Shown here: piece after piece, positions 10,308-62,806 of the stretch
Layout: each line of letters begins with the position of its first letter
Numbering within the stretch: the first letter of the stretch is position 1
NCBI GenBank assembly: GCA_009773355.1
Contig: WRPG01000008.1
Span: 1 to 64,000 of the forward strand
Source: Limisphaerales bacterium
Lineage (GTDB): Bacteria; Verrucomicrobiota; Verrucomicrobiia; Limisphaerales; SXTU01
DNA: 64,000 nt
Direction: 5' to 3'
Notes under the pieces: generated by a model
What the model was told of the DNA's origin: nothing
The model's database searches: none
What the model saw: only the letters and a program-made list of their open reading frames with translations
Translations under genes and position numbers: made by a program

Positions 10308-11206
10308 TTGCCGCTGCTCTTGAGCTTGGCCTCGATTTGCGCCCGCAACTCCTTCGTGCGCTTCTGGGCGTCGGCGACTTGCTGCGGGGACATCTTTATC
10401 TCCAAGCCATCACGGTTCTTTGCTGCGATTTCTTCTGTCTTGGCGGCGAGATTATACCACGCATACGCCTCCAAATAGTCCTTCTCCACGCCTTGGCCTT
10501 TCTCGTAGCTGAAGCCCAGATTGGATTGCGCCAAGGCGTAGTTCTGCTCGGCGGCCTTGCGATACCACTTCACGGCTTCCGCGTAGTCCTTTTCCGCGCC
10601 TTGGCCTTCGTAGTAGCAGCTGCCCAGATTGAATTGAGCCTGGGCGTCGTTCTGCTCGGCGGCCTTGCGATACCATTTCACGGCTTCCCCGTAGTCCTTC
10701 TCTACGCCTTGGCCCCTCTCGTAGCTGAAGCCCAGATTGAGTTGAGCCGAGGCGTAGTTCTGCTCGGCGGCCTTGCGATGCCACTTCACGGCTTCCGCGT
10801 AGTCCTTCTCCACGCCTTTGCCCTTCTCGTAGCAGACGCCCAGATTGTATTGAGCCTGAGCGTAGTTCTGCTCGGCGGCCTTGCGATACCATTTCACGGC
10901 TTCCGCGTAGTCCTTCTCCACGCCTGTGCCCATCTCGTAGCTGCCACCCAGCCTGGATTGAGCCTGGGCGTGGTTCTGCTCGGTGGCCTTGCGAAACCAC
11001 CTCACGGCTTCCGTGTGGTCCTTCTCCACGCCTTCGCCTAGGTAATAGCAGAGGCCCAGATTGGATTGAGCCTGGGCGTCGCCCTTCTCGGCCTTGGCTT
11101 TGTCTTCTAGGAATTGCTTGCGCAGCGCTTCGCTTTGCTGCGCAGGTGCGGATGGCAAAATCAGACTGTCGATGCAGAGCAGCACCGCGATAAGTGTGGT
11201 TCTCAT
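10304..11206 (-). CDS. Secreted Sel1-repeat protein
   Basis: 300 residues. A signal peptide (residues 1-22, ending near PSAPAQQ) precedes six Sel1 (TPR-like) repeats of 36 residues between about 42 and 250. Each carries the pattern A-x-A-Q-x-N-L-G and YAEAVKWYRKAAEQN. The repeats are so alike at DNA level that a 108-bp tandem repeat is visible. The C-terminal 40 residues form a charged helix. Sel1 proteins are protein-protein interaction scaffolds. The gene overlaps both its upstream neighbour (11203-11206) and the DUF1501 gene (10304-10307) by four bases, indicating a tightly coupled operon. Confidence 0.9.
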   Translation of the reverse strand: MRTTLIAVLLCIDSLILPSAPAQQSEALRKQFLEDKAKAEKGDAQAQSNLGLCYYLGEGVEKDHTEAVRWFRKATEQNHAQAQSRLGGSYEMGTGVEKDYAEAVKWYRKAAEQNYAQAQYNLGVCYEKGKGVEKDYAEAVKWHRKAAEQNYASAQLNLGFSYERGQGVEKDYGEAVKWYRKAAEQNDAQAQFNLGSCYYEGQGAEKDYAEAVKWYRKAAEQNYALAQSNLGFSYEKGQGVEKDYLEAYAWYNLAAKTEEIAAKNRDGLEIKMSPQQVADAQKRTKELRAQIEAKLKSSGK

Positions 11207-11745: not shown

Positions 11746-14302
11746 TTAACAGCTAGCGCGTTTTCGACTCCATCTTCCGAACAAGTCTAGCATTCGGTTT
11801 TGTGGCTGGCTTGGCAAGCGGGCGGTTGGGTTTCTGGCCTACACCTCGAACATCCCCCCAAGACCGGCGACCCCACGCGCGTAGGGCCGCCGGCCCAGAG
11901 GAGTCTCGTCCCACCGGGTTGCTCAACTCCGCAACATCTGCTCGTTTCAAGTCAGTCAACATACAGAAAGGCGTTGCTCGTGAGCAGCACGCGGGCGAGG
12001 CCGGCCCAGGCGAGTTCGGTGTCGTTGGCCGGGGGCTTTTCGAGGGTGGTGAGCTTGGTGCGGTAAGTGGTGAGGAAGGAGAGGGCGTCGCTGACTTCGC
12101 TGTCGCTCGGCGCGCGGCCGTGGGCCATCGCGAAGGCTAGGCGGATACGTTTCGAGTCGTCGCCCGATTCGGCGAGCAGACGGCGGGCGAAGGACTCGGC
12201 CTGCTGCTGCACGAAGGGCGAATTCATCAGGTAGAGCGTCTGCGTGGGCGTGGTGGTGGGTAGGCGTTGCGCGACGCTGAGGTTCGGGTCGGCGGCGTCG
12301 AAGAGCGCGAGGAAGGGATGGCGACGGTTGCGCTGCTGCATCAGGTAGAGGCTGCGATGGTCGCTGTCGTAAACGGCGAAGAACGGGTTGTGGATGGTAA
12401 AGCGCCACGTTGCCATGTCGGGGAACGGGTGCGGGCCGGGCACGGTGCGATTGAGCCGGCCGCTCACGGCGAGCATGGCGTCGCGGATGGACTCGGCGTC
12501 GAGCGGACGGCGGGCGTGCCGCCAGAGCCAGACGTTCGCCGGGTCCTTCTTCAGGTTTGCCGCGTGGTCGTCGCTCGCGAGTTGATAGGTTTGCGAGCGC
12601 ATGATGAGCCGGTGCAGCGCCTTCACGGACCAACCGGACGCGATGAACTCGGACGTGAGCCAGTCGAGCAACTCCGGGTGCGTGGGCGGTTCGCCGCGCA
12701 GGCCGAAGTCGCTGGGCGTGGGCACGAGGCCCGCGCCGAAATGCCATTGCCAAACGCGGTTCACGAACACGCGCGCGGTGAGCGGGTTACTCGGGCGCGT
12801 GAGCCAGTCGGCGAGTTCGAGGCGACCGCTGCCAGTCGAGCCGGCGGGGAGTTGGTCGCCGCCGAGCACGTCGAGGAAGCGGCGCGGGGCTTCGGCACCG
12901 AGCTTGTCCGGCTCGCCGCGAAGCTGGATATGCACGTTGACGGGCTTGTCCTCGCGCACGCCGTAGGCCACGGGATACAGCTCCTTCGCGGTTTCGGCCT
13001 CGCGGAGTTTCGTGGTCGCGGCGAGGTCGGCATCGAGCTGCTTGAGCCGCGCAGTTAAGTCAGCGGGCGGCGCAGCGGGCAGCACGACGGGGCCGGTGCC
13101 CGGCTCGGCGAAGGGCGTTTCGAGCAAGGCGATGTTGTCGAGGTCGCGCTCGGGCGCGGGGCCGCTGACGTGGCCGATGGCGTCGCAGATGAAGGTGTCG
13201 GCCACGCCGTCCCAGTTCGCGCCGAGCGGTTTGTCCGCGAACGTCGTGAGGTCGCCGACCACGCCGACCGCACCGGAGTAAGTCTTCTTCGCCGGGTCGA
13301 GCGTGAGGCGAAGCGTGTGCCAGGTGCCGGGCTGGAGCTGGCGGAGGACTTCCCATTTCGCGCCGTTGCGGAGCGCGAGTTCCGTCGCAGTCACGCTCAC
13401 TTCCACTGCGAGCGACGCGATGACGCCGCGCCCGAGATAGAAGCGATACGCGCCGGATTTGTCGGTCGGCGCGACGGTGCGGAAGTCCACGCTGAAGTGC
13501 ATTTGCTTGCCGGGCGCGGCCTTGAGCGGGCGGTTGAAAACGTAGCGCACGCCGTTGTTGGCCTTGCCGGTGCCGACGCGCACGCCGCGTGTGCCAACGG
13601 GGTGGATGTGGGCGAAGGGGCTTTGAGCTTCGGCCAAAACCTTGTTCGGCCCTTCGGACAGCCACGGCGCAGTGGGCGGCTCGCCGAGCTTCTGCAATTC
13701 GAAGCCGAGGTCCGGGCCGCCGCCGATGGATTTGTTGTCGAGCGCGACGCGGTCGGCTTTGAGCTTCGCGAGTGCGGCGTCGAGGCGGGCGAGTTCGGCG
13801 GCCTTGGCTTTGTCGAGCCGCGCAGCTTCGGCGGGCGCGACGAGCGGAGGAAAGTCGGAGGGGCGCTTCTGTTCCTCGCCGCCGGGGAACGCCCACTTGG
13901 TGCTCTGGAAGATGCCGTAGAGCGCGTAGTAATCGCCCATGTTGACCGGGTCATACTTGTGGTCGTGACATCGTGCGCAGCCGAGCGAGAGGCCGAGCAG
14001 CGAGCGGCCCACGGAGTCAATGGCGTCGGCGAAATCGAGGTGCTGGTAGTCTGGCGAGGGCTTGTAGCCGTAGCGTTTGCCGATGGCGAGGAAACCGGTG
14101 GCGGTGATGCGGCGGGGGTGAACTCGTTGAGGGGTTGGTCGGCGTTGAAGGCGTTCACGACCCAGTCGCGATACTTCACCGCCTCACGCACCGGATAGTC
14201 CGCGCCGTCGCCGGCGGTGTCGGCGTAACGCGCGACGTCGAGCCAGTGACGGCCCCAGCGCTCGCCGTAGGCGGGGGAGGCGAGCAAGCGGTCGATGGCA
14301 TT

Positions 14303-14330
14303 GGCGATTGCCGATTGCCGATTGCCGATT
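14303..14330. repeat. Four-heptamer array in the DUF1549 gene
   Basis: One GGCGATT unit is followed by three GCCGATT units on the plus strand, read on the coding strand as SIGNRQSAIAN. The same four units in the same order recur at 26857-26884 inside the MetE-like gene. The array sits in a loop before DRLLASPAYGERWGRHW, where family members vary in length. Confidence 0.75.
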
Positions 14331-14966
14331 GAGGAAGACTCACGCTCGAACGCCTCAATCTCGGCGGGCGTTGGCGGCAGGCCCGTGAGGTCGAAGGTGG
14401 CGCGGCGGATGAACACGCGCGGGTCGGCGGGGGGATTGGGCGTGAGGCCTTGTTGTTGCATCCGTGCGAGCACGAATCGGTCGAAGGGCTGCTGACTCCA
14501 AGAGTTCGCCTGCGGAGTCGGAGGCTGCGGATGCGTGAGGGGTTGGAAGGCCCAGTGTTTCCGCACGGCGGCGGGGTCCACGCCGGATTTGGCGACGGCG
14601 ACGCCTTCGCGCGGGTCGGGGGCGCCGAGCTTCACCCACTGTTCGAGCGCGGCGACTTCCTCGGAGCCGAGCGCGCGCTTGGGCGGCATCTGAAGCGACT
14701 TGTCCTTCCGGCGCACGGCTTGGATGAGGCGGCTCTTCTCCGGTTCGCCGGGGATGATGACGGGGCCGTGGTCGCCGCCTTTTTGCCAGCCGGCCTTCGT
14801 GTCGAGACGGAGGCCGGACTCCTGTTTCTTCTCGCCGTGGCACTGCTGGCAATGCGTGACGAAGAGCGGGCGGATTTTCGCCTCGAAGAAGGCGTGGCCG
14901 TCGGAGGCAGCGGACAAATTGAACGACAAGAAATGCAGGCCAGCGATTGAGGCGGCGAAGGCCCAC

Positions 14967-18348: not shown

Positions 18349-19728
18349 ATGAAACGAAGATCACATACCGACAAGGTGCTCGCCCTTCTCCGCGCCCATG
18401 AATCACGCAATGTGACCTTCATGGAGGCGGACGGCTCATGGCCCATCGTCTGGACCCGCGCGCGTGGCGTGAATGTCTGGGACGCCGAGGGGCGAAAGTA
18501 TCTCGATCTCACGGCGGCGTTTGGCGTGGCGGCGGCGGGGCACGCGAACCCGCGCGTCGTTCGCGCCGGGCAGCGCCAGATGGCCACGCTGCTGCACGCA
18601 ATGGGTGACGTGCATCCGCATCCGCTGAAAGCCCAACTGGCGCAAGAGTTGTCGCGGCTGACGTTTGAGCGGTGGGCATCGGCCAGGTTCAAGGTTCAAG
18701 GTTCAAGGTTCAAGGTTGGCCGTTCAGCGGGCAAAACCATCTTCTGCAACTCGGGCTTCGAGGCGGTGGAAGCGGCCCTCAAGACCGCCACGTTGGCGAC
18801 GGGCAAGCGCGGCGTAATCGCGTTCGAGGGCGCGTATCACGGGCTGGGCTACGGGGCGCTCAACGTCACGCACCGCGAGCACTTCCGCGGTCCGTTCCGG
18901 TCACAGCTCGGGGAGTTCGGGCACTTCCTGCCGTTCCCCGTGGTAGCCGCCGACGTGAGGAGGCGGAACTCAACGGATGCCGAACAGCTCCGCCTCCTCA
19001 CGTCGGCGGCCACGAGGCTCCTCCGTCGCGGCGACATCGGGGCGATTCTCGTCGAGCCGATCCAGGCGCGGGGCGGCATCCGCGTCCCGCCGCCGGAGTT
19101 CCTCCCGTTGCTGCGGCAGTTGTGCGACAAGCACGGCGCGCTGCTCATCCTCGACGAGATTTATACCGGCTTTGGGCGCACGGGCAAATGGTTCGCCTGC
19201 GAGCACAGCGGCGTGGTGCCGGACGTGATTTGCCTCGGCAAAGCGCTCACCGGCGGCTTCCCGCTCTCGGCCTGCGTGGGCCGCGCGGACGTGATGGACG
19301 CGGCGTGGCCCGCCTCGACCGGCGAGGCGATTCATACCAGCACCTTCCTCGGCCACCCGGTCGGCTGCGCGATGGCGCTGGCGAACATTGCGGAGATTCG
19401 GCGGCTGAAACTCGTGGAACGGAGCGCGCGGCTGGGCGAGTGGCTGTTGGCGGAGTTGTTCAAGGTTCAAGGTTCAAAGTTCAAGGTCGTCTGCCGTGCG
19501 CGTGGCGTGGGCTTGATGGCGGGGCTGGAACTCTTGCGCGCTGACGGCTCGCCGGCCACCGCCGAGTCGCTCGCGATCATCAAGCGGTTGCTACACCGGG
19601 GTTTCATCTTCCTGCCCGAGGGCGAGCACGGGAACGTCGTCGGCTTCACCCCGCCGCTCACCATCACGCAAACCCAGCTTCGCCGCGCGGTGCGGGCGCT
19701 GGCGGAGGAACTCGCCGTCCTGCTATGA
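18349..19728 (+). CDS. Class III (PLP-dependent) aminotransferase with three repeat-derived insertions
   Basis: 459 residues from the ATG preceded by GGAGGT at a good distance; a TTG 21 bp upstream is less likely. Class III landmarks are present: [45 protein letters not shown] (PLP-binding Asp about residue 268) and [14 protein letters not shown] (Schiff-base Lys about 297), then [17 protein letters not shown]. Related enzymes transaminate acetylornithine, 4-aminobutyrate or similar omega-amino donors; the exact donor is not evident. Residues of about 112-121 and 369-378 ([20 protein letters not shown]) come from heptamer arrays, and about 197-222 from a palindromic repeat. All are in frame and absent from ordinary relatives. 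The stop overlaps the rsmA start (ATGA). Confidence 0.9.
18685..18712. repeat. Four-heptamer array (AGGTTCA) in the aminotransferase gene
   Basis: Four perfect AGGTTCA units followed by a partial AGGTTGG. Translation gives [12 protein letters not shown] between the N-terminal domain and the GKTIFCNSG motif. The same unit family recurs 770 bp later in the same gene and orientation. Confidence 0.8.
18941..19013. repeat. GCCGACGTGAGGAGGC palindromic repeat in the aminotransferase gene
   Basis: The left arm GCCGACGTGAGGAGGCGGA is mirrored by the right arm TCCGCCTCCTCACGTCGGC (from 18989) across a 21-bp loop. The element is read in frame as part of an inserted loop ([14 protein letters not shown]...SAA). 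The same arms occur at 22491-22584 and as a half-copy near 41311. Confidence 0.8.
19457..19484. repeat. Second four-heptamer array in the aminotransferase gene
   Basis: Units TGTTCAA, GGTTCAA (twice) and AGTTCAA code for [11 protein letters not shown] in a surface region before the [11 protein letters not shown] motif. Unit sequence and orientation match the array at 18685. Confidence 0.75.
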
Positions 19729-21465: not shown

Positions 21466-23355
21466 ATGAGCGCCCATCCCGGTTTCGGTGCCCACACCGA
21501 CCCCAGCTTCAAATCGCAGCCGCGCTCGACTGGCGAGGTCGTGCGCCGCGTCGGCGTGTATCTGCGGCCTTACAAGCTGATGGCGCTCGGCACCATCGCC
21601 TTCGCGCTGCTCTCGCTGGCGGCGGCGTTCACCTACCCGAAGCTCACGCAGCACGTCATTGACGAGGTCATCACGAAGAAGAACGCCGACAGCCTCGCCC
21701 CGGTCATGGGCTTGCTCATCGGCGCGTTCTTCCTACGCGAGCTGTTCACCGGCCTTCGCATTCGCCTCAACAACGAGCTGGAGCAGAAGGTCATCCTCGA
21801 CATCCGCCGCGATGTCTACGCCCGCTTGCAACGCCTCCCCGTCGGCTGGTTCGACCAGCGTGCGTCCGGCGACCTGATGACGCGCGTGATCGAGGACGTG
21901 AACTCGATGGAGCGCCTGCTCATTGACGGCACCGAGCAGGGCACCGTCGCCGTCCTCAGCATCATCGGCGTGCTCATGATTCTCTTCTGCACGAACCCCC
22001 TGCTCGCCGGCATCGTGCTTATTCCGTTCCCCATCCTAGTTGGTGGCGCGCTCTGGTATACCCTCACCGCCCACAAGCGCTACCGTGCCCAACGCCAGGC
22101 TGCCGGTGCCATGAACGCACTGCTCATGGACAACCTCCAGGGCATCCGCCAAATCAAGTCCTTCGGTCGCGAGCGGCACGAGGACGCGCGTTTCGGTGCC
22201 CGCGCCGAAGACCTCCGCCAAGGCACGCTCACCGTCATGCGCGCGTGGTCCATCTACTCGCCGGCGATGGCCTTCGCCTCCTCGCTCGGCTTCGGGCTAG
22301 TGCTCTGGTTCGGCGGCACGCAAATCCTTGCGAACAAGATGACCGTCGGCGAGTTGGTGCAATTCCTCCTCTACCTCAGCTTCTTCTACGATCCAATCGC
22401 CCGCCTTCACGGGCTGAACCAGATGCTCCAGTCCGCCCGCGCCGCCAGCGAGCGCGTCTTCGACATCATGGACGCGACGGAAGAGCGCGATGTAGCAGCC
22501 GACGTGAGGAGGCTCACTTCAAACACGCAACACGCAACACGCAGCACGGAATCCGGTCAGAGCCTCCTCACGTCGGCTGCTACACGGATGCGCGGCGAAG
22601 TCCGCTACGAGAACGTCGGCTTCCAATACGGAGCGGACCGCGTCGTCCTCAAATCCATTTCGCTCCACGCCCAGCCCGGCCAGATGACCGCGCTCGTCGG
22701 CCCCACCGGCGCGGGCAAATCTACTCTCGTCAACCTCCTCCCCGCCTTCTACCAAGCCACCTCCGGCCGCGTGTTCATTGATGGCGTGGACACCCGCGAG
22801 CTGCCGCTGGAAACGCTGCGCGAGCAAATCAGCGTCGTTGCCCAGGAGCCGTTCCTCTTCAACGGCACCATCCGCGAGAACATCCTCTACGGCCGCCTCG
22901 ACGCCTCCGAAGCCGACCTCCACGCCGCCGCGAAGGCCGCCAACTGCCACGACTTCATCACGCGCCTGTCCGACGGCTACGACGCCCGCGTCGGCGAGCG
23001 TGGCGTGAAGTTGAGCGTCGGCGAGAAGCAGCGCGTGAGCATCGCCCGCGCGCTGCTCAAGAACGCGCCCATCCTCATCCTCGATGAGGCCACCGCCAGC
23101 GTGGACACGCAGACCGAGAAGCTGATTCAGGAGGCGCTGGAGCGGCTCATGGCCGGCCGCACCAGCTTCGTCATCGCGCACCGTCTCAGCACCATTCGCA
23201 AGGCCGACCAAATCCTCGTCCTGCGCCACGGTGAAATCGTCGAGCGCGGCACCCACGAGGAACTCCTCGCCACGGACGGCCTCTACGCCAGGCTCGCGCG
23301 CATCCAGAACACCACCTTCATCGAGGAAAGCTTCGAGAAGCTCGCGGTGAGCTGA
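21466..23355 (+). CDS. ABC exporter, MsbA-like (fused membrane and ATPase domains)
   Basis: 629 residues. The N-terminal half carries six membrane segments (for example LMALGTIAFALLSLAAAF and APVMGLLIGAFFL) and the exporter coupling region YARLQRLPVGWFDQ. The ATPase half has Walker A GPTGAGKST, a Q-loop VVAQEPFLFNG, signature LSVGEKQR (canonical LSGGQ changed at two positions), Walker B ILILDEATA and the H-loop IAHRLSTI. As in MsbA-type homodimers it probably flips lipid or lipid-linked substrates across the inner membrane. Residues of about 342-373, between membrane and ATPase domains, are a repeat-derived insertion (AADVRRL...LTSAATR). It stands alone, just downstream of a tRNA. Confidence 0.92.
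   Translation: MSAHPGFGAHTDPSFKSQPRSTGEVVRRVGVYLRPYKLMALGTIAFALLSLAAAFTYPKLTQHVIDEVITKKNADSLAPVMGLLIGAFFLRELFTGLRIRLNNELEQKVILDIRRDVYARLQRLPVGWFDQRASGDLMTRVIEDVNSMERLLIDGTEQGTVAVLSIIGVLMILFCTNPLLAGIVLIPFPILVGGALWYTLTAHKRYRAQRQAAGAMNALLMDNLQGIRQIKSFGRERHEDARFGARAEDLRQGTLTVMRAWSIYSPAMAFASSLGFGLVLWFGGTQILANKMTVGELVQFLLYLSFFYDPIARLHGLNQMLQSARAASERVFDIMDATEERDVAADVRRLTSNTQHATRSTESGQSLLTSAATRMRGEVRYENVGFQYGADRVVLKSISLHAQPGQMTALVGPTGAGKSTLVNLLPAFYQATSGRVFIDGVDTRELPLETLREQISVVAQEPFLFNGTIRENILYGRLDASEADLHAAAKAANCHDFITRLSDGYDARVGERGVKLSVGEKQRVSIARALLKNAPILILDEATASVDTQTEKLIQEALERLMAGRTSFVIAHRLSTIRKADQILVLRHGEIVERGTHEELLATDGLYARLARIQNTTFIEESFEKLAVS
22491..22584. repeat. Perfect 25-bp inverted repeat enclosing a four-heptamer array, inside the ABC exporter gene
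   Basis: The arms at 22491-22515 and 22560-22584 are exact reverse complements (core GCCGACGTGAGGAGGCTC). The 44-bp loop contains four heptamers at 22522-22549 (AACACGC three times, then AGCACGG). The whole 94 bp is read in frame in the linker before the ATPase domain, showing a heptamer array nested in the other palindrome family. Confidence 0.85.
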
Positions 23356-24776: not shown

Positions 24777-25325
24777 TCAGGATTCCACATTCTCTCGCCT
24801 GGGCGTGGAACACTTCTTCCGCCATTCCTCCATCAAGTCGGCGAGTTCTTGCGGCCACATCCCATACGTATCGGGCAGGCGGGTTGGTGGAACACGTGCC
24901 CGTTTGTCAGTTCGGCGAAGCTCCATCCACTCGCTCCAAATCTCGTTGAAATATTCAATCCGCACGCCCTCAGAGCCACCAACTTGGCCGACTGTAAATC
25001 GTTTGATCTTGTTCCAAGGATACACGACTCCCTTCCCCCAAACACCGGATGCGATACCTGCCGAACTCAGGATCAATCGAAACCGGCGCATGAACATCAC
25101 AGCCAAGCAAGACACGATTCCCACCAAACCATACACCAAGACCAGTCCGCCAATCCAAGAACCCTCAGCAGCCTTCTCCCAGCCGATTCCCACCGCCAAG
25201 GAAAAGAAGGCAGCAAAACCGAGCCATTTGAACGGGCTCGGCTTCAACACCAGCGTGTCTCCGCCGATGCCGCTTCGCTGAGATTCATTCACAGCCGGTG
25301 ATCCTTTGCCTTGGTCATTGGACAT
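24777..25325 (-). CDS. Small membrane protein, hypothetical
   Basis: 182 residues. Two membrane segments are clear (WLGFAAFFSLAVGIG and IGGLVLVYGLVGIVSCLAV, about residues 34-48 and 58-76). A soluble C-terminal part follows that resembles membrane-anchored PH-like domains (FRLILSSAGIAS, VYPWNKIKRFTV), with a helical end. No function is assigned. The ATG begins immediately after the TGA of the duplicated MetE-like 3' end, so it was probably once directly coupled to that gene. Confidence 0.6.
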   Translation of the reverse strand: MSNDQGKGSPAVNESQRSGIGGDTLVLKPSPFKWLGFAAFFSLAVGIGWEKAAEGSWIGGLVLVYGLVGIVSCLAVMFMRRFRLILSSAGIASGVWGKGVVYPWNKIKRFTVGQVGGSEGVRIEYFNEIWSEWMELRRTDKRARVPPTRLPDTYGMWPQELADLMEEWRKKCSTPRRENVES

Positions 25326-25425
25326 TCAGCTCGCACCGCACCCGCTGCACGCCTTCCACCATATTCGGCAGTTTCTGTTTCGCCGCCCAGCGCGCGATCT
25401 GCGGGAGGCCGCAGTCGGAGGGCGT
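25326..25425 (-). pseudogene. Orphan copy of the 3' end of the MetE-like gene
   Basis: About 100 bp match the last 100 bp of the methionine-synthase-like gene that ends at 26205. The stretch TTCTGTTTCGCCGCCCAGCG is identical, and the rest carries scattered substitutions. In the gene's frame it ends GVQRVRCEL-stop against GVQRVSNELGL-stop in the intact gene. No start codon belongs to it. The nucleotidyltransferase gene lies between the two copies. Confidence 0.75.
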
Positions 25426-25427
25426 GC

Positions 25428-26135
25428 TCATGTCCGCTTGAGTTGCTCGAAGCGGGCGATGCGCGCCTCGATGTCCCGGACGATGACGCGCAGTTCGTGC
25501 AGGTCGCCCGGTTCCAGGTGCGCCTCCAACCGTTGAAGCAGCGGGGCCACCTCCGGGTGGTGCCGCTGGAGCAGGCTGGCGATGTCGGCTTCATAGACGG
25601 ACACGCGGTCGAACAAACCCTGCCGATACAGCGAGGGCAGCGCGTAAAGTTTCAGCAGGACCAGTCCCTCCGGGGTCGCCGTCGGCACGTCCAATTCAGC
25701 GAAACGGTGAACGGTGCCGTAGTCCTTCTGCGCCTCGGCGAACAGCGCGTTGGCCGTCAACAGCACATCCACGCGCACCGTGCGGAAGCGGCCCCGGACG
25801 AAGTTCTCATCGCGCTCCTCAATGGTGATTTCGGGAAGCTGCCGCAACGAAGGCAGCGACATGAGCAGGTCAATGTCTTCCGTGTTGCGTCCCTCGACGT
25901 AACGCAGCATGGCGATGCCGCCGACCAGCAGGTAGGGAATGGCTCGTTCGCGCAGCAGCTCGAACAGCGCAACCACATCGTGGTCGGTGGGCAGGACATT
26001 CTGGCTTTGCCCACGGTCACTCTTTCGTCCGCTCGGTGCGCCACCTTCCCAAGCATCCGGGCCGAGCATCACTGCGTTGCGGACAATCTCCGAAACGCGG
26101 CGCAGGCTGGCCCCGGGCGCAAGGGTGGCATTCAT
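25428..26135 (-). CDS. Nucleotidyltransferase-fold protein (AbiEii/DUF6036-like)
   Basis: 235 residues from ATG; a TTG at 26171 would add 12. The core LLVGGIAMLRYVEGRNTEDI followed by DLLM is the GG...DxD signature of nucleotidyltransferase-like proteins used by AbiEii-type antitoxin-linked enzymes and DUF6036 proteins. The third acid is likely in RTVRVDVLL, and ATPEGLVLLKLYAL is the helical motif common in this group. The C-terminal helix (HELRVIVRDIEARIARF) is coiled-coil-like. No partner antitoxin is apparent. It is inserted between the MetE-like gene and a copy of that gene's 3' end. Confidence 0.75.
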   Translation of the reverse strand: MNATLAPGASLRRVSEIVRNAVMLGPDAWEGGAPSGRKSDRGQSQNVLPTDHDVVALFELLRERAIPYLLVGGIAMLRYVEGRNTEDIDLLMSLPSLRQLPEITIEERDENFVRGRFRTVRVDVLLTANALFAEAQKDYGTVHRFAELDVPTATPEGLVLLKLYALPSLYRQGLFDRVSVYEADIASLLQRHHPEVAPLLQRLEAHLEPGDLHELRVIVRDIEARIARFEQLKRT

Positions 26136-26204: not shown

Positions 26205-27260
26205 TCAGAGGCCAAGCTCGTTGCTCACGCGCTGCACTCCCGCCACCATGTTCGCCAGCTTCTGTTTCGCCGCCCAGCGCGCGGTCTGCGAGAGGCCGCA
26301 GTCGGGGGCGAAGGCGAGCTTCTCCGGCGGGGCGTGCTTGAGGCAGGCGCGGACGCGCGACGCGATGTCCTCCGGCGTCTCGATGTAGTAGCTCTTCACG
26401 TCCACGATGCCCACGGCGGCGATGTGCCGCTTCGCGATTTCGCCGATGACCTCCAGCTCCGCAAACTCGCGGCTCGCCATCTCGACGTGGATTTCGTCCA
26501 GGTGCAGGTCGAGAAACGCCGGGAACATCGGCGCGTAGCGGCGCGGGCCGACGGCGCGGCCCTTGTAGTTGCCGAAGCATAGGTGCGTGCTGAGGTGGCA
26601 CTTGCCCGCGACCGCCTCGACGGTGCGGTTGAAGATGTTCACGAAGCGCCTCGGGTCTTCGCGATGCGCGTAGCAGCTCATGCTCGGCTCATCCACGCAA
26701 ATCTCCGTGCAGCCCGCGCGCACGAGCGACTCCAGCTCTGCGCGCACGAGCGGCAGCAACGCCTCGGTCAGCTCCCAGCGGTTCTTATATTGGTCATTCG
26801 GCAGCAGCCGTCCGCTCAGGGTGTAAGGCCCCGGCACAGACGCTTTCAGCGTGATTGGCGATTGCCGATTGCCGATTGCCGATTGGGCAATGCGCTTCAG
26901 CCGATCGAAATCTTCCACCGCCCCCAGCCCACGCGGCGCGCGCAGCTCGCCGATAACCTTGTGCTTCCCGCGCTGGTCGTGCGCCGGTGGGCCGAAGCGG
27001 CGCGGCGGTGCGCTCTCCAGTTCGATGCCCTCGATGAAGCCGTAGAAGCTCAAGTTGAAGTCCAGCCGCGTCTGCTCGCCATCGGTGATGACATCGAGGC
27101 CGGCGTCGAGCTGGTCCTTCACCGCGATGGCCACGGCGTCGTCCACCATCTCAGCGCGGTCGGCGTCGCCAAACTGGCCGAGGTGCTGGCAGGCGAATTC
27201 CAGCCAGCCGGGAAACGGGTAGCTGCCGATGACGGTCGTGCGGAGTGGTTGGACTTTCAT
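26205..27260 (-). CDS. Cobalamin-independent methionine synthase C-terminal-like enzyme
   Basis: 351 residues from the ATG followed by KVQPLRTTVIGSYPFPGW; a longer reading upstream has no family similarity. It corresponds to the catalytic C-terminal barrel of MetE. Zinc ligands are visible as His and Cys in STHLCFGNY, Glu in HVEMASRE and Cys in FAPDCGLSQ. The methyl-donor-binding DEPSM is also present. Short MetE-like proteins of this size occur in many bacteria and may use methyl donors other than methyltetrahydropteroyl-triglutamate. Residues of about 125-134 (AQSAIGNRQS) are an insertion encoded by a heptamer array. The last 100 bp are duplicated at 25326. Confidence 0.85.
   Translation of the reverse strand: MKVQPLRTTVIGSYPFPGWLEFACQHLGQFGDADRAEMVDDAVAIAVKDQLDAGLDVITDGEQTRLDFNLSFYGFIEGIELESAPPRRFGPPAHDQRGKHKVIGELRAPRGLGAVEDFDRLKRIAQSAIGNRQSPITLKASVPGPYTLSGRLLPNDQYKNRWELTEALLPLVRAELESLVRAGCTEICVDEPSMSCYAHREDPRRFVNIFNRTVEAVAGKCHLSTHLCFGNYKGRAVGPRRYAPMFPAFLDLHLDEIHVEMASREFAELEVIGEIAKRHIAAVGIVDVKSYYIETPEDIASRVRACLKHAPPEKLAFAPDCGLSQTARWAAKQKLANMVAGVQRVSNELGL
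26857..26884. repeat. Four-heptamer array in the MetE-like gene
   Basis: One GGCGATT plus three GCCGATT units, identical in order and sequence to the array at 14303-14330, with the three bases to the left also shared (ATT). It is translated in the minus frame as IGNRQS-type residues within a loop. Confidence 0.8.
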
Positions 27261-28626: not shown

Positions 28627-29643
28627 TTAATCGCGCGCGGGGTCAAAGCCCAGGGCATTCGCCGCCGAACCGTAGGCCCCGGCGTAGTCGCCCAGCTCCG
28701 CGCGCACTATCCGCGCCTGATGCCCGCCGGCCTGCCACTCGTAGTGGCGGACGTAGCGCTCCAGCGGCGCGAACAGCGTCTCACCCGCGCGGGCGATGCC
28801 GCCGCCGATGATGACCGCGTCCGAGTCGAGGACGTTGATGAGCGAGCTGATGCTGCAACCGAGCGCGCGCACGGAGCGGTCCCAGATTTCCTTCGCTGCC
28901 GCGTCGCCCTTGATGGCGGCGGCGACCAGCTCGTGCGTGCTGGCGAAGCGGCCCTTCGTGCGCTCGCGGATGAACTTGTTGCCCATGAAGTGTTCCAGCG
29001 AGCCGGGCGTGTTGAAGTCGTCGCGCGGGCCGTTCCAGTCCACCGTGATGTGGCCGAGATGTCCCGCGCGGCCAATCGCGCCACGCAGCAGGTGCCCGTC
29101 CACCATCGCCGCGCCGCCGACGCCGGTGCCGAGCGTGAAGAGCATCACGTCGCGCAGCCCGCGCGCCGCGCCGCGCCAGACTTCGCCGAGCAACGCGGCG
29201 TGGGCGTCGTTGAGAATCGGAATCGGGCGGGGCGACGCGAGGTAGTCCGTCCAGTCGAGCCGCTCCAAGCCGAGCAGCCGGCCCGGCATCACGGCGATGC
29301 TGCGCGCGTCCTTCGCCGCCAGGCCCGGTGCGGAGAGGCCGATGCCCGCCGGCTCGCCCAGTTCACGCCGCCACGCGCGGATGAGCGTGCGGATTTTTTT
29401 CGCCCACTCCATGTCGCGGTCCACGAACGGCACGCTGCGCTGCCGGAGCTTCTCGCCGGTCGCCGTGACCGCGACGGCTTTGATGCTCGTGCCGCCGAGG
29501 TCGAGGCCGAGGAAGTAGTTTTGAGTTTTGGGTTTTGAGTTTTGAGTTGAAGGCGTGGCGGCGCGAACGGCCGACTTGGAACCGGTCGCGCTGGGCGCAC
29601 CCGACTCAGAACTCAGAACCTTGAACTCAGAACCCTTCTTCAT
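28627..29643 (-). CDS. ROK family sugar kinase
   Basis: 338 residues. The ATG at 29643 overlaps the SDR stop (ATGA). ATP-binding LGLDLGGTSIKAV (about 42-54), the catalytic NDAHAALLGE, FTLGTGVGGA and the C-terminal AVIIGGGIARAG are all present. The usual ROK zinc Cys cluster is not seen; the corresponding region reads GHLGHITVDWNG. It phosphorylates glucose or a related hexose in the cytoplasm. ROK proteins normally begin directly with the ATP motif. Here about 40 extra N-terminal residues are encoded by an inverted pair of heptamer arrays. Confidence 0.88.
   Translation of the reverse strand: MKKGSEFKVLSSESGAPSATGSKSAVRAATPSTQNSKPKTQNYFLGLDLGGTSIKAVAVTATGEKLRQRSVPFVDRDMEWAKKIRTLIRAWRRELGEPAGIGLSAPGLAAKDARSIAVMPGRLLGLERLDWTDYLASPRPIPILNDAHAALLGEVWRGAARGLRDVMLFTLGTGVGGAAMVDGHLLRGAIGRAGHLGHITVDWNGPRDDFNTPGSLEHFMGNKFIRERTKGRFASTHELVAAAIKGDAAAKEIWDRSVRALGCSISSLINVLDSDAVIIGGGIARAGETLFAPLERYVRHYEWQAGGHQARIVRAELGDYAGAYGSAANALGFDPARD
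29518..29632. repeat. Gene-less inverted pair of four-heptamer arrays in the ROK leader
   Basis: The left array (29518-29545) is made of GTTTTGA units with one GTTTTGG in second place. The right array (29604-29632, complement) is made of GTTCTGA units with one GTTCAAG in second place. The two are inverted and 58 bp apart, giving a 115-bp element with the same terminal organisation as the elements at 60278 and 62223 but no gene inside. It is translated as the first 40 residues of the kinase. Confidence 0.75.
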
Positions 29644-30413
29644 GACACACACCACCCGCCGTCCACCGCCAGCACCTGACCGGTGACGAACTTGGAATCG
29701 TCGCTCATAAAGAAGACGGCGGCGGCATCCAGGTCCTCTGGCTGGCCGATGCGCCCGCCATCGAGCGGCTGCTTGGTGCGGATGAAGTCGAGGATCGCCG
29801 CGTCAGTTTGAGCACGTTCAGACATCGGCGTGGCGACGAGCGCGGGCGCAAGGACGTTGAAGCGGAGGTTGTCCTTGGCGTAGTGCGCGGCGGCGGTCTG
29901 CGTCAGGCCGATGATGCCCGCCTTGGCCGTGGCGTAGGCGTGCGTGGCGAAGAACTGCGGCGACGGCGACCAGCCCAGCACGCTGCCCATGTTCAGCACC
30001 GTGCCGCCCGTGCGTTGGGCGAGAAACTGCCGGATGGCGGCGCGGTTCGAGTAGAGCAAGGACGTAAGGTTCTCGTTCAGTGTAAACTGCCAGCCTTCAT
30101 CAGTGAGTTCGTGGAGCGGTCCGTCGCCTTGCCTGCGCCCGCTGCCGCCCGCGACGTGGTAAAGCCCGTGGAAGCCGCCGAACTTCTCCACGGCCAGCGC
30201 AATGGCCCGGGCCGAGGTCTCCGGTTGCATCGCGTCGGCGGCCAACCCCACAACAGCGGAACCTAGCTCGCGTTCGACGGCGTGGACCTTCGCCGCGCTG
30301 CGCCCGACAACGACCACGCGCGCGCCCTCGCGCACGAATGCCTTCGCCGCCGAGAGGCCGAGTCCGCTGGTGCCGCCGATGACGACAAGGACTTTGCCGC
30401 TGAGTTTGCTCAC
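29640..30413 (-). CDS. Short-chain dehydrogenase/reductase
   Basis: 257 residues. Cofactor-binding GGTSGLGLSAAKAF (about 13-26), VVVVGRS for NADP choice, the strand HVAGGSGR in place of NNAG, catalytic Ser in LNMGSVLGW, and YATAKAG (catalytic Tyr and Lys) are all classical SDR features. The C-terminal VLAVDGGWCVS is also typical. It reduces or oxidises a small alcohol/ketone in the cytoplasm; the substrate is not evident. Its stop overlaps the ROK kinase start, so the two are translationally coupled and may act on the same sugar. Confidence 0.9.
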   Translation of the reverse strand: MSKLSGKVLVVIGGTSGLGLSAAKAFVREGARVVVVGRSAAKVHAVERELGSAVVGLAADAMQPETSARAIALAVEKFGGFHGLYHVAGGSGRRQGDGPLHELTDEGWQFTLNENLTSLLYSNRAAIRQFLAQRTGGTVLNMGSVLGWSPSPQFFATHAYATAKAGIIGLTQTAAAHYAKDNLRFNVLAPALVATPMSERAQTDAAILDFIRTKQPLDGGRIGQPEDLDAAAVFFMSDDSKFVTGQVLAVDGGWCVS

Positions 30414-60277: not shown

Positions 60278-60852
60278 CGTAAAACGTAATTCGTAAAACG
60301 TAAGGGCGGCTGGCGGCACTATGGCATGGGAATGTTCGTGAGCAATGGTTCGGAGGGAGATTCCGCTTCAAGTGCTGGCGGAGTGGAAGTGTAGCCATAG
60401 GGCGTTGGCTCCTCGCGGAGCACGGTTCCGCGTTGGTCGGGGACCATTGTCAGCAGCAGGCGGATGATTTCCGTCAGCAAATGGATTCGGTGAGTCGAGA
60501 CCGCCTCGCCCAGGACATGCCGGCCCTTGTAATACCAGCCGCGTGCCTCACGGGCGGAACCGAGACCGTATTCGTAGAAGCGCGCCCTGTCCTTTCCCGT
60601 CCCGCGCGAATAGCCTTCTTCAATGTCGGCACTGACGGCTCCCGCCGCGCGGTTGAGTTGGTCAGCGAGACTGATGGTCCGCTTGTCGCCCAGCAGCTTG
60701 GTCGAGTCGTGCCAAGCCAGCTCCGCCAGAAACAGCGCGAACCGGTATGCCTTCGTGTTCCAAACCGAATCGCCACGAATCTCCGCCGGCACCGACTTTT
60801 CCCACTCCGCGTAGTTCATAACGCCCTTACGCTTTACGTTTCACGTTTTACT
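60278..60852 (-). mobile_element. Four-helix-bundle element 1 with inverted four-heptamer ends
   Basis: The left end (60278-60305) is four heptamers of CGTAAAA type whose innermost unit is CGTAAGG. The right end (60825-60852, complement) is four of the same type, also with CGTAAGG innermost. Each end is 28 bp. Between them is a single gene, a four-helix-bundle protein, filling the space almost completely. The left end begins four bases beyond the glutamine synthetase ATG. The right end contains the TAA stop (60848-60850) of the aldehyde dehydrogenase. No target duplication was found. Confidence 0.7.
60319..60819 (-). CDS. Four-helix-bundle protein (23S rRNA intervening-sequence S23/IVP family)
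   Basis: 166 residues. LADQLNRAAGAVSADIEEGY followed by SRGTGKDRARFYEYGLGSAR is the family core (helix 2, then helix 3), and IHLLTEIIRLLLTMVPDQRG is helix 4. About 35 extra C-terminal residues (EPTPYGYTSTPP ... TNIPMP) follow. Family members are known from 23S rRNA intervening sequences and resemble the Avd protein of diversity-generating retroelements. They form pentameric barrels that bind nucleic acid, with no catalytic residues. It is related throughout to the protein at 62249, including the PMP end. The start is six bases inside the right terminal array; the stop is 13 bases from the left one. Confidence 0.9.
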   Translation of the reverse strand: MNYAEWEKSVPAEIRGDSVWNTKAYRFALFLAELAWHDSTKLLGDKRTISLADQLNRAAGAVSADIEEGYSRGTGKDRARFYEYGLGSAREARGWYYKGRHVLGEAVSTHRIHLLTEIIRLLLTMVPDQRGTVLREEPTPYGYTSTPPALEAESPSEPLLTNIPMP

Positions 60853-62222: not shown

Positions 62223-62806
62223 CGTGTTTCGTGCTCCGTGTTCCGTGATTACGCTTCGGGCATTGGCACTGAACTCAGGAGCGATTCGAGTTCGGATGGT
62301 GAAAAGGCGGGGACGTCTTGAGCGGGCTGCGTCGTGTAGGGAGTCTCGTCTTCGTGGAGAGAGTAGCCGCGAGTGGCGGGGAGCGTGGAGAGAAGCAGGC
62401 GGATGATTTGTGTCTCCAGCTTCATCCGATGGTCGGCCACCGCGTCGCCCAAGAGGTGGCGACCGTCGAAATACCATGTGCGGGTTTCACGCGCGGAGCC
62501 AAGCGCATACTCGTAGAAGCGCGCGCGATCCTTCGGGAATCCTCTTGAGTATCCTTCCGAGATGTTCGCCCCGATAGAGCCGACTGCACGAATGAGTTGC
62601 CCCGCCAAATCTCGCGTGCGTGCGTCGCGGAAGAGCTTTGTTGCGTCGTGCCACGCAAGGTCTGCCACAAACAGTGCCAGCCGATAGGTCTCCTGGTTCC
62701 ACAACGGATCCTCCGTAATTGTTGCCGGAACACCCTTCAACCACTCCTGATAGTTCATATCGTTGATGTCCCTTCGTTAGTCACGGAACACGGAGCACGG
62801 AACACG
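62223..62806 (-). mobile_element. Four-helix-bundle element 2 with inverted four-heptamer ends
   Basis: The left end (62223-62250) is four heptamers of CGTGTTC type with CGTGATT innermost. The right end (62779-62806, complement) repeats them with CGTGACT innermost; the two 28-bp ends differ at two positions. The second unit is CGTGCTC at both ends. A four-helix-bundle gene fills the interior, 584 bp overall. The left end begins seven bases beyond the aldehyde dehydrogenase ATG. The right end holds the TGA (62781-62783) and last residues (SVLRVP) of the permease gene. Confidence 0.75.
62249..62758 (-). CDS. Four-helix-bundle protein (S23/IVP family), second copy
   Basis: 169 residues. The same core as the protein at 60319: LAGQLIRAVGSIGANISEGY, SRGFPKDRARFYEYALGSAR and LETQIIRLLLSTLPATRGYS, and a similar C-terminal tail ending SSVPMPEA. 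The two are roughly half identical by eye. Family function is nucleic-acid binding without known catalysis. The stop codon TAA lies in the innermost left heptamer (62249-62251), so the gene and terminal array are fused at that side. The ATG is 20 bp inside the right array. Confidence 0.9.
   Translation of the reverse strand: MNYQEWLKGVPATITEDPLWNQETYRLALFVADLAWHDATKLFRDARTRDLAGQLIRAVGSIGANISEGYSRGFPKDRARFYEYALGSARETRTWYFDGRHLLGDAVADHRMKLETQIIRLLLSTLPATRGYSLHEDETPYTTQPAQDVPAFSPSELESLLSSVPMPEA

Follow-up and report, generated by a model that had tools for sequence, protein, structure and literature searches.

How the N-terminus of an enzyme can come to be written in inverted heptamer repeats is the question raised by a ROK-family kinase gene of a Limisphaerales bacterium. 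The gene lies at positions 28627–29643 on the minus strand of the window, by which we mean the entire 64,000-nucleotide stretch of DNA that was analyzed, and it encodes a protein of 338 amino acids with a Pfam match to PF00480 over residues 45–328. Its ATG (29641–29643) overlaps the stop codon of the upstream SDR gene (29640–30413, minus strand) in the arrangement ATGA, and the 42 codons that begin there (29518–29643, minus strand) are written by two four-unit heptamer arrays, their spacer and some adjoining codons; the motif YFLGLDLGGT follows directly. Arm 1 (29517–29547, plus strand; AGTTTTGAGTTTTGGGTTTTGAGTTTTGAGT) is built on the word GTTTTGA and lies on the side of the kinase domain, arm 2 (29604–29634, minus strand; GGTTCTGAGTTCAAGGTTCTGAGTTCTGAGT in the minus-strand reading) is built on GTTCTGA and lies on the side of the start codon, and the gene-free spacer of 56 bp between them (29548–29603) is identical at 40/54 positions to that of the congener G007 in the part that can be aligned. 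The reading frame is open throughout the extension, and no in-frame ATG, GTG or TTG was found in the sequence between the ATG at 29641–29643 and the conserved ROK domain; given standard start codons, the arrays are thus translated. A sequence-only reading of this DNA had reported a gene-free 115-bp segment translated as about 40 residues and an inverted pair of four-unit arrays, and this observation is indeed real.

The two arms of the ROK pair are complementary at 24 of 31 positions, have a word distance of 1, and form the best ungapped inverted repeat at this place; the pair ranks within the top seven inverted repeats of the same geometry in the 64-kb window. The sequence GTTTTGAGTTTTGA, when at most one mismatch is allowed, occurs three times in the window, each time at the ROK pair, while 100 shuffles yielded 0.00 occurrences. 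The pair is also no isolated case in its genome. In a sample that comprises the window and 40 more stretches of its genome (768,077 bases out of 6.16 Mb), 96 arrays with a period of seven were detected, along with 56 of period 14, a harmonic of seven, and 0–12 for each of the periods 4–6, 8–13 and 15. Array lengths in this sample peak at 30–33 nt, and the words are diverse (GTTCAAR, GTGTTGC, TTACGCA, CCAAGCT, GATTGCC and others). A strict rule identified 25 inverted pairs, 23 of them with gaps of 0–84 bp, so that the search for further short-gap pairs proposed on first reading proved productive; in the two remaining pairs the gap measures 439 and 534 bp, no gap among the 25 falls between 84 and 439 bp, and both long-gap pairs enclose a gene of the PF05635 family (S23p, known from 23S rRNA intervening sequences, IVSs).

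Two such complete elements are present in the window. Element A (60278–60851, minus strand) has inverted arms of the word GTAAAAC around a PF05635 gene at 60319–60819, and element B (62223–62806, minus strand) has arms of GTGTTCC/GTGCTCC around a PF05635 gene at 62249–62758. Their proteins match TIGR02436 and PF05635, and a six-sequence profile of PF05635 element proteins gave matches to the solved structures 2GSC and 2RLD. No transposase is found in the parent-like elements; the gene that they carry is PF05635. The 56-bp spacer of the ROK pair lacks the PF05635 gene that elements A and B encode, and the pair is located at the ROK/SDR junction and not in an rRNA gene.

The association between PF05635 genes and inverted arrays extends well beyond the window. 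Heptamer arrays with the same word in inverted orientation flank 19 of 35 PF05635 loci of the genus, as compared with 3 of 1360 random positions, and 16 of 30 PF05635 loci drawn phylum-wide from other genomes have inverted heptamer arrays; together these amount to 35/65 loci, where swapping of flanks between loci leads one to expect 4.2. When only an arm complementarity of at least 24/31 is asked for, irrespective of periodicity, 39/65 loci qualify as opposed to 0/65 in the swapped control, a count that treats loci with cut flanks as misses; a recount that omitted such loci (10 of the 65 PF05635 loci and 11 of 30 PF13366 loci, a second family considered below) gave 39/55, with 2/55 in the swap control. 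It should be noted that the 65 and 30 loci are the best of longer lists, and both sets therefore lean towards strong family matches. The arm period among the 39 loci is seven in 34 cases and eight in five (L003, L162, L248, L252 and L254). Each complete element uses words of its own, and arm complementarity reaches 31/31. The sequence-only reading had also pointed to an odd unit in second position from the outside as a common signature; this holds for both ROK arms and both arms of element B but represents no general rule, since the oddest unit varies in both collections of arrays studied. Among 28 paired arrays of the window genome it is unit 3 in seven, unit 4 in four, unit 2 in three and unit 1 in three, and among 43 arrays of PF05635 elements it is unit 3 in 11, unit 2 in seven, unit 4 in five and unit 1 in four, the remaining arrays having no unique oddest unit.

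A direct connection between the ROK pair and a gene-bearing element is provided by the congener G007, whose complete element L155 possesses the arms GGTTCTGAGTTCGGAGTTTTGAGTTCTGAGT and GGTTTTGAGTTCGGAGTTCTGAGTTGTTAGT. Aligned in register with the right arm of the ROK pair, these are identical at 27/31 and 25/31 positions, respectively; the value of 27/31 is the highest of 156 arm comparisons, the majority of which scored 9–19. The window genome has another gene-less GTTTTGA/GTTCTGA pair on its contig 62. A complete element with the words of the ROK pair was not found inside the window genome, and the sharing of words between complete and gene-less forms there (2/6) was dismissed as evidence, as it was equally high in 155/500 shuffles. 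Since gene-less pairs are numerous in the genome and a complete element with matching arms exists in a congener, the earlier suggestion of a gene-less counterpart of complete elements has held up, and the evidence supports a kinship between the gene-less ROK segment and a complete element.

The arms of gene-bearing elements appear to change in concert. In the window genome, unit 2 of element B reads GTGCTCC in both arms, which lie 534 bp apart, and in the orthologous element of G007 both arms have GTGTTGC there. In another orthologous group, present in five congeners, the arms of G009 are exact complements (31/31), and G010 has a different word in both arms. This group shows seven double-sided changes as compared with 3.3 in shuffles, of which 3/500 reached as high a value, and 0–1 in a control with slid registers; because the double changes come mostly from G010, they amount to close to one lineage's worth of evidence.

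What can be said about the history of the segment within the kinase gene? The SDR-ROK junction is readable in nine species of the genus, including that of the window, and a segment of similar length is present in all nine, with a distance of 139–160 nt between the codons for VDGGW and GLDLGG. Arrays were detected at the junction in six of the nine, mostly with different words (GCAAAAA, GGCAAAA, GTCCAAA and GTTCAAA on one side, CTCAACT-like words on the opposite side); by eye, degenerate units are visible in G001 and G002 and barely in G006. Sequence identity at the junction is 67–76% versus 82–91% for the flanking genes (six comparisons), and the right-arm sequence of the ROK pair is well conserved in four species. 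The ATG that overlaps the SDR stop codon is a possible start of the open reading frame in seven of the nine species, and the original start codon beside the YxLG motif has been lost. In the out-group, those ROK kinases that were read mostly begin directly with M-x-Y-x-L-G and have no extension; hence, the comparison with related kinases speaks against conservation of the extension in distant ROK kinases, which had been named in advance as the mark of an ordinary domain. Out-group junction lengths range from 56 to 320 (25 loci; 16 of the 49 loci surveyed had no readable SDR junction), and the genus values of 142–161 fall within this range, so that we can only infer an insertion of about 86–105 bp over the most compact form.

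The folding of the junction adds to this picture. Compared with shuffled sequences, the junction hairpin of the window genome has a z-score of −4.5 and that of the out-group genome G012 one of −3.3, and in the remaining eight species of the genus the values lie between −1.2 and +1.1; a conserved RNA hairpin was therefore discarded as an explanation, good folding being restricted to the window genome and G012. A strain-specific insertion was likewise given up, since a similar segment is found in all nine readable species; the frame is intact, as the sequence-only reading had it. Given the segment in 9/9 species, the preserved frame and the mostly vanished stem, we regard the segment as old, with the window genome having kept or regained its stem. 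No target-site duplications were seen by eye at the few sites that were read.

We consider it probable that the 115 bp constitute a gene-less member of a family of dispersed small elements, which are bounded by arrays of four to five heptamers in inverted orientation. Complete members carry a gene for a PF05635 four-helix-bundle protein, the S23p protein of 23S rRNA intervening sequences. The ancestor of the genus may have gained a gene-less element at the SDR-ROK junction, whereupon the start codon of the kinase would have moved to the far end of the element and the element would have become a disposable N-terminal linker. Slippage-like homogenization within the arrays could then swap words over time, while in gene-bearing elements both arms would change together and retain their complementarity. 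We propose that an S23p homopentamer might recognize an array, either as DNA or as an RNA hairpin, with about one heptamer per protomer, and might move or maintain the elements in trans, gene-less copies included. According to PMC4990558, which cites Lin 2006, the S23p protein of Xanthomonas forms a homopentameric ring. The arrays measure about 31 nt, or 4.5 units, which comes near to five protomers and is at most suggestive of one heptamer per protomer. It speaks against a simple trans model that array density showed no correlation with PF05635 gene number over 11 genomes (Spearman 0.20, p 0.55), and such a relationship was consequently rejected; G001 (82% complete), the sole genome of the 11 without a PF05635 gene, has the second-lowest array density.

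An alternative, which we judge rather unlikely, is that these are selfish elements at the level of RNA, comparable to the IVSs of 23S rRNA, in which RNase III cuts the array stem and S23p is either a passenger or an RNA-binding partner. Its basis is the 23S rRNA IVS of Coxiella burnetii, described in PMC4990558 as being excised by RNase III and as having three tandem heptamers (GACAGAT) and a degenerate fourth one before the S23p open reading frame, with a heptamer copy number that varies among strains. The elements reported here resemble this IVS in their PF05635-type protein, their terminal inverted repeats and the heptamers ahead of the S23p start, and the match of the element proteins to 2GSC and 2RLD, as well as arms complementary up to 31/31, would suit an RNA-based mode of life. 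Unlike the IVS as this source portrays it, which sits in 23S rRNA, the complete elements lie between protein genes, have words of their own and have arrays as both arms, and gene-less copies are found in and between protein genes. Cleavage inside the ROK gene would sever the mRNA of the kinase, the stem has been lost at the ROK site in most species of the genus, and cleavage leaves the dispersal to many loci unexplained. PF05635 proteins have in addition been likened to Avd of diversity-generating retroelements (PMC10053308), and they are found in rRNA insertions of CPR bacteria (PMC11270868).

Less probable still, in our estimation, is that heptamer arrays arise in place by 7-nt polymerase slippage and that the inverted pair consists of two such arrays without any element. 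Heptamers are the commonest class among long bacterial repeats according to the introduction of PMC4679880, which cites Mrazek 2007, and homogenization within arrays with graded words can be observed, as in the left array of G009. The same article describes TAACTGA heptamers dispersed in Beggiatoaceae, Cyanobacteria and Bacteroidetes, with no mechanism of spread given. Like the arrays studied here, these repeats form arrays of a few units, are numerous per genome, and some are found in open reading frames near the ends of proteins; they differ in using a single word, in lying mostly upstream of start codons, and in that only one indirect repeat is described among them and neither an element nor a gene was linked to them.

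The solo arrays of the window bear on this explanation as well. A class-III aminotransferase gene contains two of them, GGTTCAA at site 1 (18685–18717, plus strand, in frame) and GTTCAAG at site 2 (19458–19487, plus strand); GATTGCC (26853–26885, plus strand) lies in frame in a methionine-synthase-like gene, and ATTGCCG (14300–14331, plus strand) in a gene with PSCyt1/PSCyt2 domains. The array of the methionine-synthase-like gene occupies the same place in congeners, with the words CAATCGG, GCGGTCA or AATCCAG, and corresponds to an insertion of nine residues relative to PDB 3rpd. At aminotransferase site 1, no array is present in G001 and G003, and other genomes have different words. At site 2, a lag-7 identity of at least 0.70 was found in 17/30 orthologues from several families, with differing words; the segment measures 26–29 residues in 30/30, is equally long with and without arrays, and aligns without a gap with E. 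coli PatA (4uox). A uniform insertion model for solo arrays was therefore abandoned: the methionine-synthase site and aminotransferase site 1 are insertion-like, while site 2, where arrays come without a change in length, would fit repeated slippage or replacement. Constancy of length at site 2 thus favors slippage, and the array sites in two genes that are insertions relative to homologues count against it. Slippage also fails to account for partners that are inverted and share a word, for the preference in their spacing and for the PF05635 gene that they enclose, and the arms of complete elements change jointly across about 400–530 bp.

Several other features were observed in the window. A second hairpin family of fixed sequence (GCCGACGTGAGGAGGC...GCCTCCTCACGTCGGC) is found at 18939–19017, in the aminotransferase gene, and at 22485–22590, and a related fixed-sequence hairpin is present at aminotransferase site 1 in the congeners G002 and G010 and in the out-group genome G085. 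Downstream of the methionine-synthase-like gene, a second short piece at 25324–25431 resembles the C-terminus of its protein (67% over 36 residues), and a 108-bp tandem repeat of 5.6 copies is located at 10476–11079.

That the extension is an ordinary ROK linker or regulatory leader, repetitive by chance, is very improbable, as its sequence is hardly conserved, out-group kinases mostly start with M-x-Y-x-L-G and arrays of the same kind occur in unrelated genes, even if the frame kept in the genus, the VDGGW-GLDLGG length of 139–160 nt in 9/9 species and the well-conserved right arm in four of them would be compatible with it.

The STRR heptamer repeats of heterocystous cyanobacteria are dispersed short arrays of a few fixed words; they resemble the arrays described here in being short, dispersed and heptameric, and differ in the fixed nature of their words, and we know of no inverted pairing of STRR repeats around a gene. 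More generally, the heptamer arrays reported here are distinguished from simple sequence repeats (LSSR/STRR) by their inverted partners and by a PF05635 gene. MITEs and the palindromes of REP/RAYT systems are likewise short inverted-repeat copies that lack a gene and are related to copies with one; in the family considered here, it is the period-7 architecture rather than a given sequence that sets the ends, and the gene carried does not encode a transposase. Searches of the open-access literature turned up only the Coxiella heptamers and no account of PF05635 genes flanked by inverted heptamer arrays elsewhere than in rRNA. The heptamer-array/PF05635 family is widespread, and little about it seems to have been described.

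A second gene family is organized in a similar manner. Among loci from the same order that carry a PF13366 (PDDEXK_3) gene, which we take to be the GxxExxY family, the arms are complementary at a minimum of 24/31 positions in 14/19, as opposed to 0/19 in the control; the best period is 8–12, mostly 9–10, and heptamer arrays were found in 0/60 of the PF13366 flanks. These cassettes are thus like the PF05635 elements in placing a gene between array-like inverted arms and unlike them in their period and their lack of heptamer arrays; since PF05635 arms have a period of seven (some eight) and PF13366 arms mostly one of 9–10, the period goes with the gene family. PF13366 loci, among them L281 and L144 of G006, consist of a gene between inverted arms with a period of about 9–11, and gene-less copies are seen at other sites. 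The junction of the SIS and methionine-synthase genes harbors a PF05635 heptamer element in G007 (L203:11051–11462), gene-less hairpins with a period of about nine in G010, G001, G002 and G009, and none in G005. Where the window genome has its PF05635 element on contig 90, G006 has a gene-less hairpin, one arm of which agrees with an arm of its own PF13366 locus L281 in 29/31 letters, as counted by eye.

On balance, we lean slightly towards regarding these as a class of bacterial elements defined by architecture, in which a short gene would stand between inverted arrays, each element with its own word and with co-evolving arms, and in which the period would follow the gene family (7, sometimes 8, with PF05635/S23p; about 9–11 with the PF13366/GxxExxY nuclease). 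Gene-less copies would be numerous in such a class, some of them absorbed in frame into enzymes such as the ROK kinase, and the rRNA IVSs would represent the special case of an element that landed in 23S rRNA. The link between PF05635 genes and arrays gives the PF05635 (four helix bundle/S23p) proteins a testable substrate, ties the rRNA IVSs to a wider family of elements, and suggests where dispersed heptamer repeats, hitherto unexplained, might come from. The ROK kinase itself illustrates a way in which an element of this kind can be built into an enzyme.
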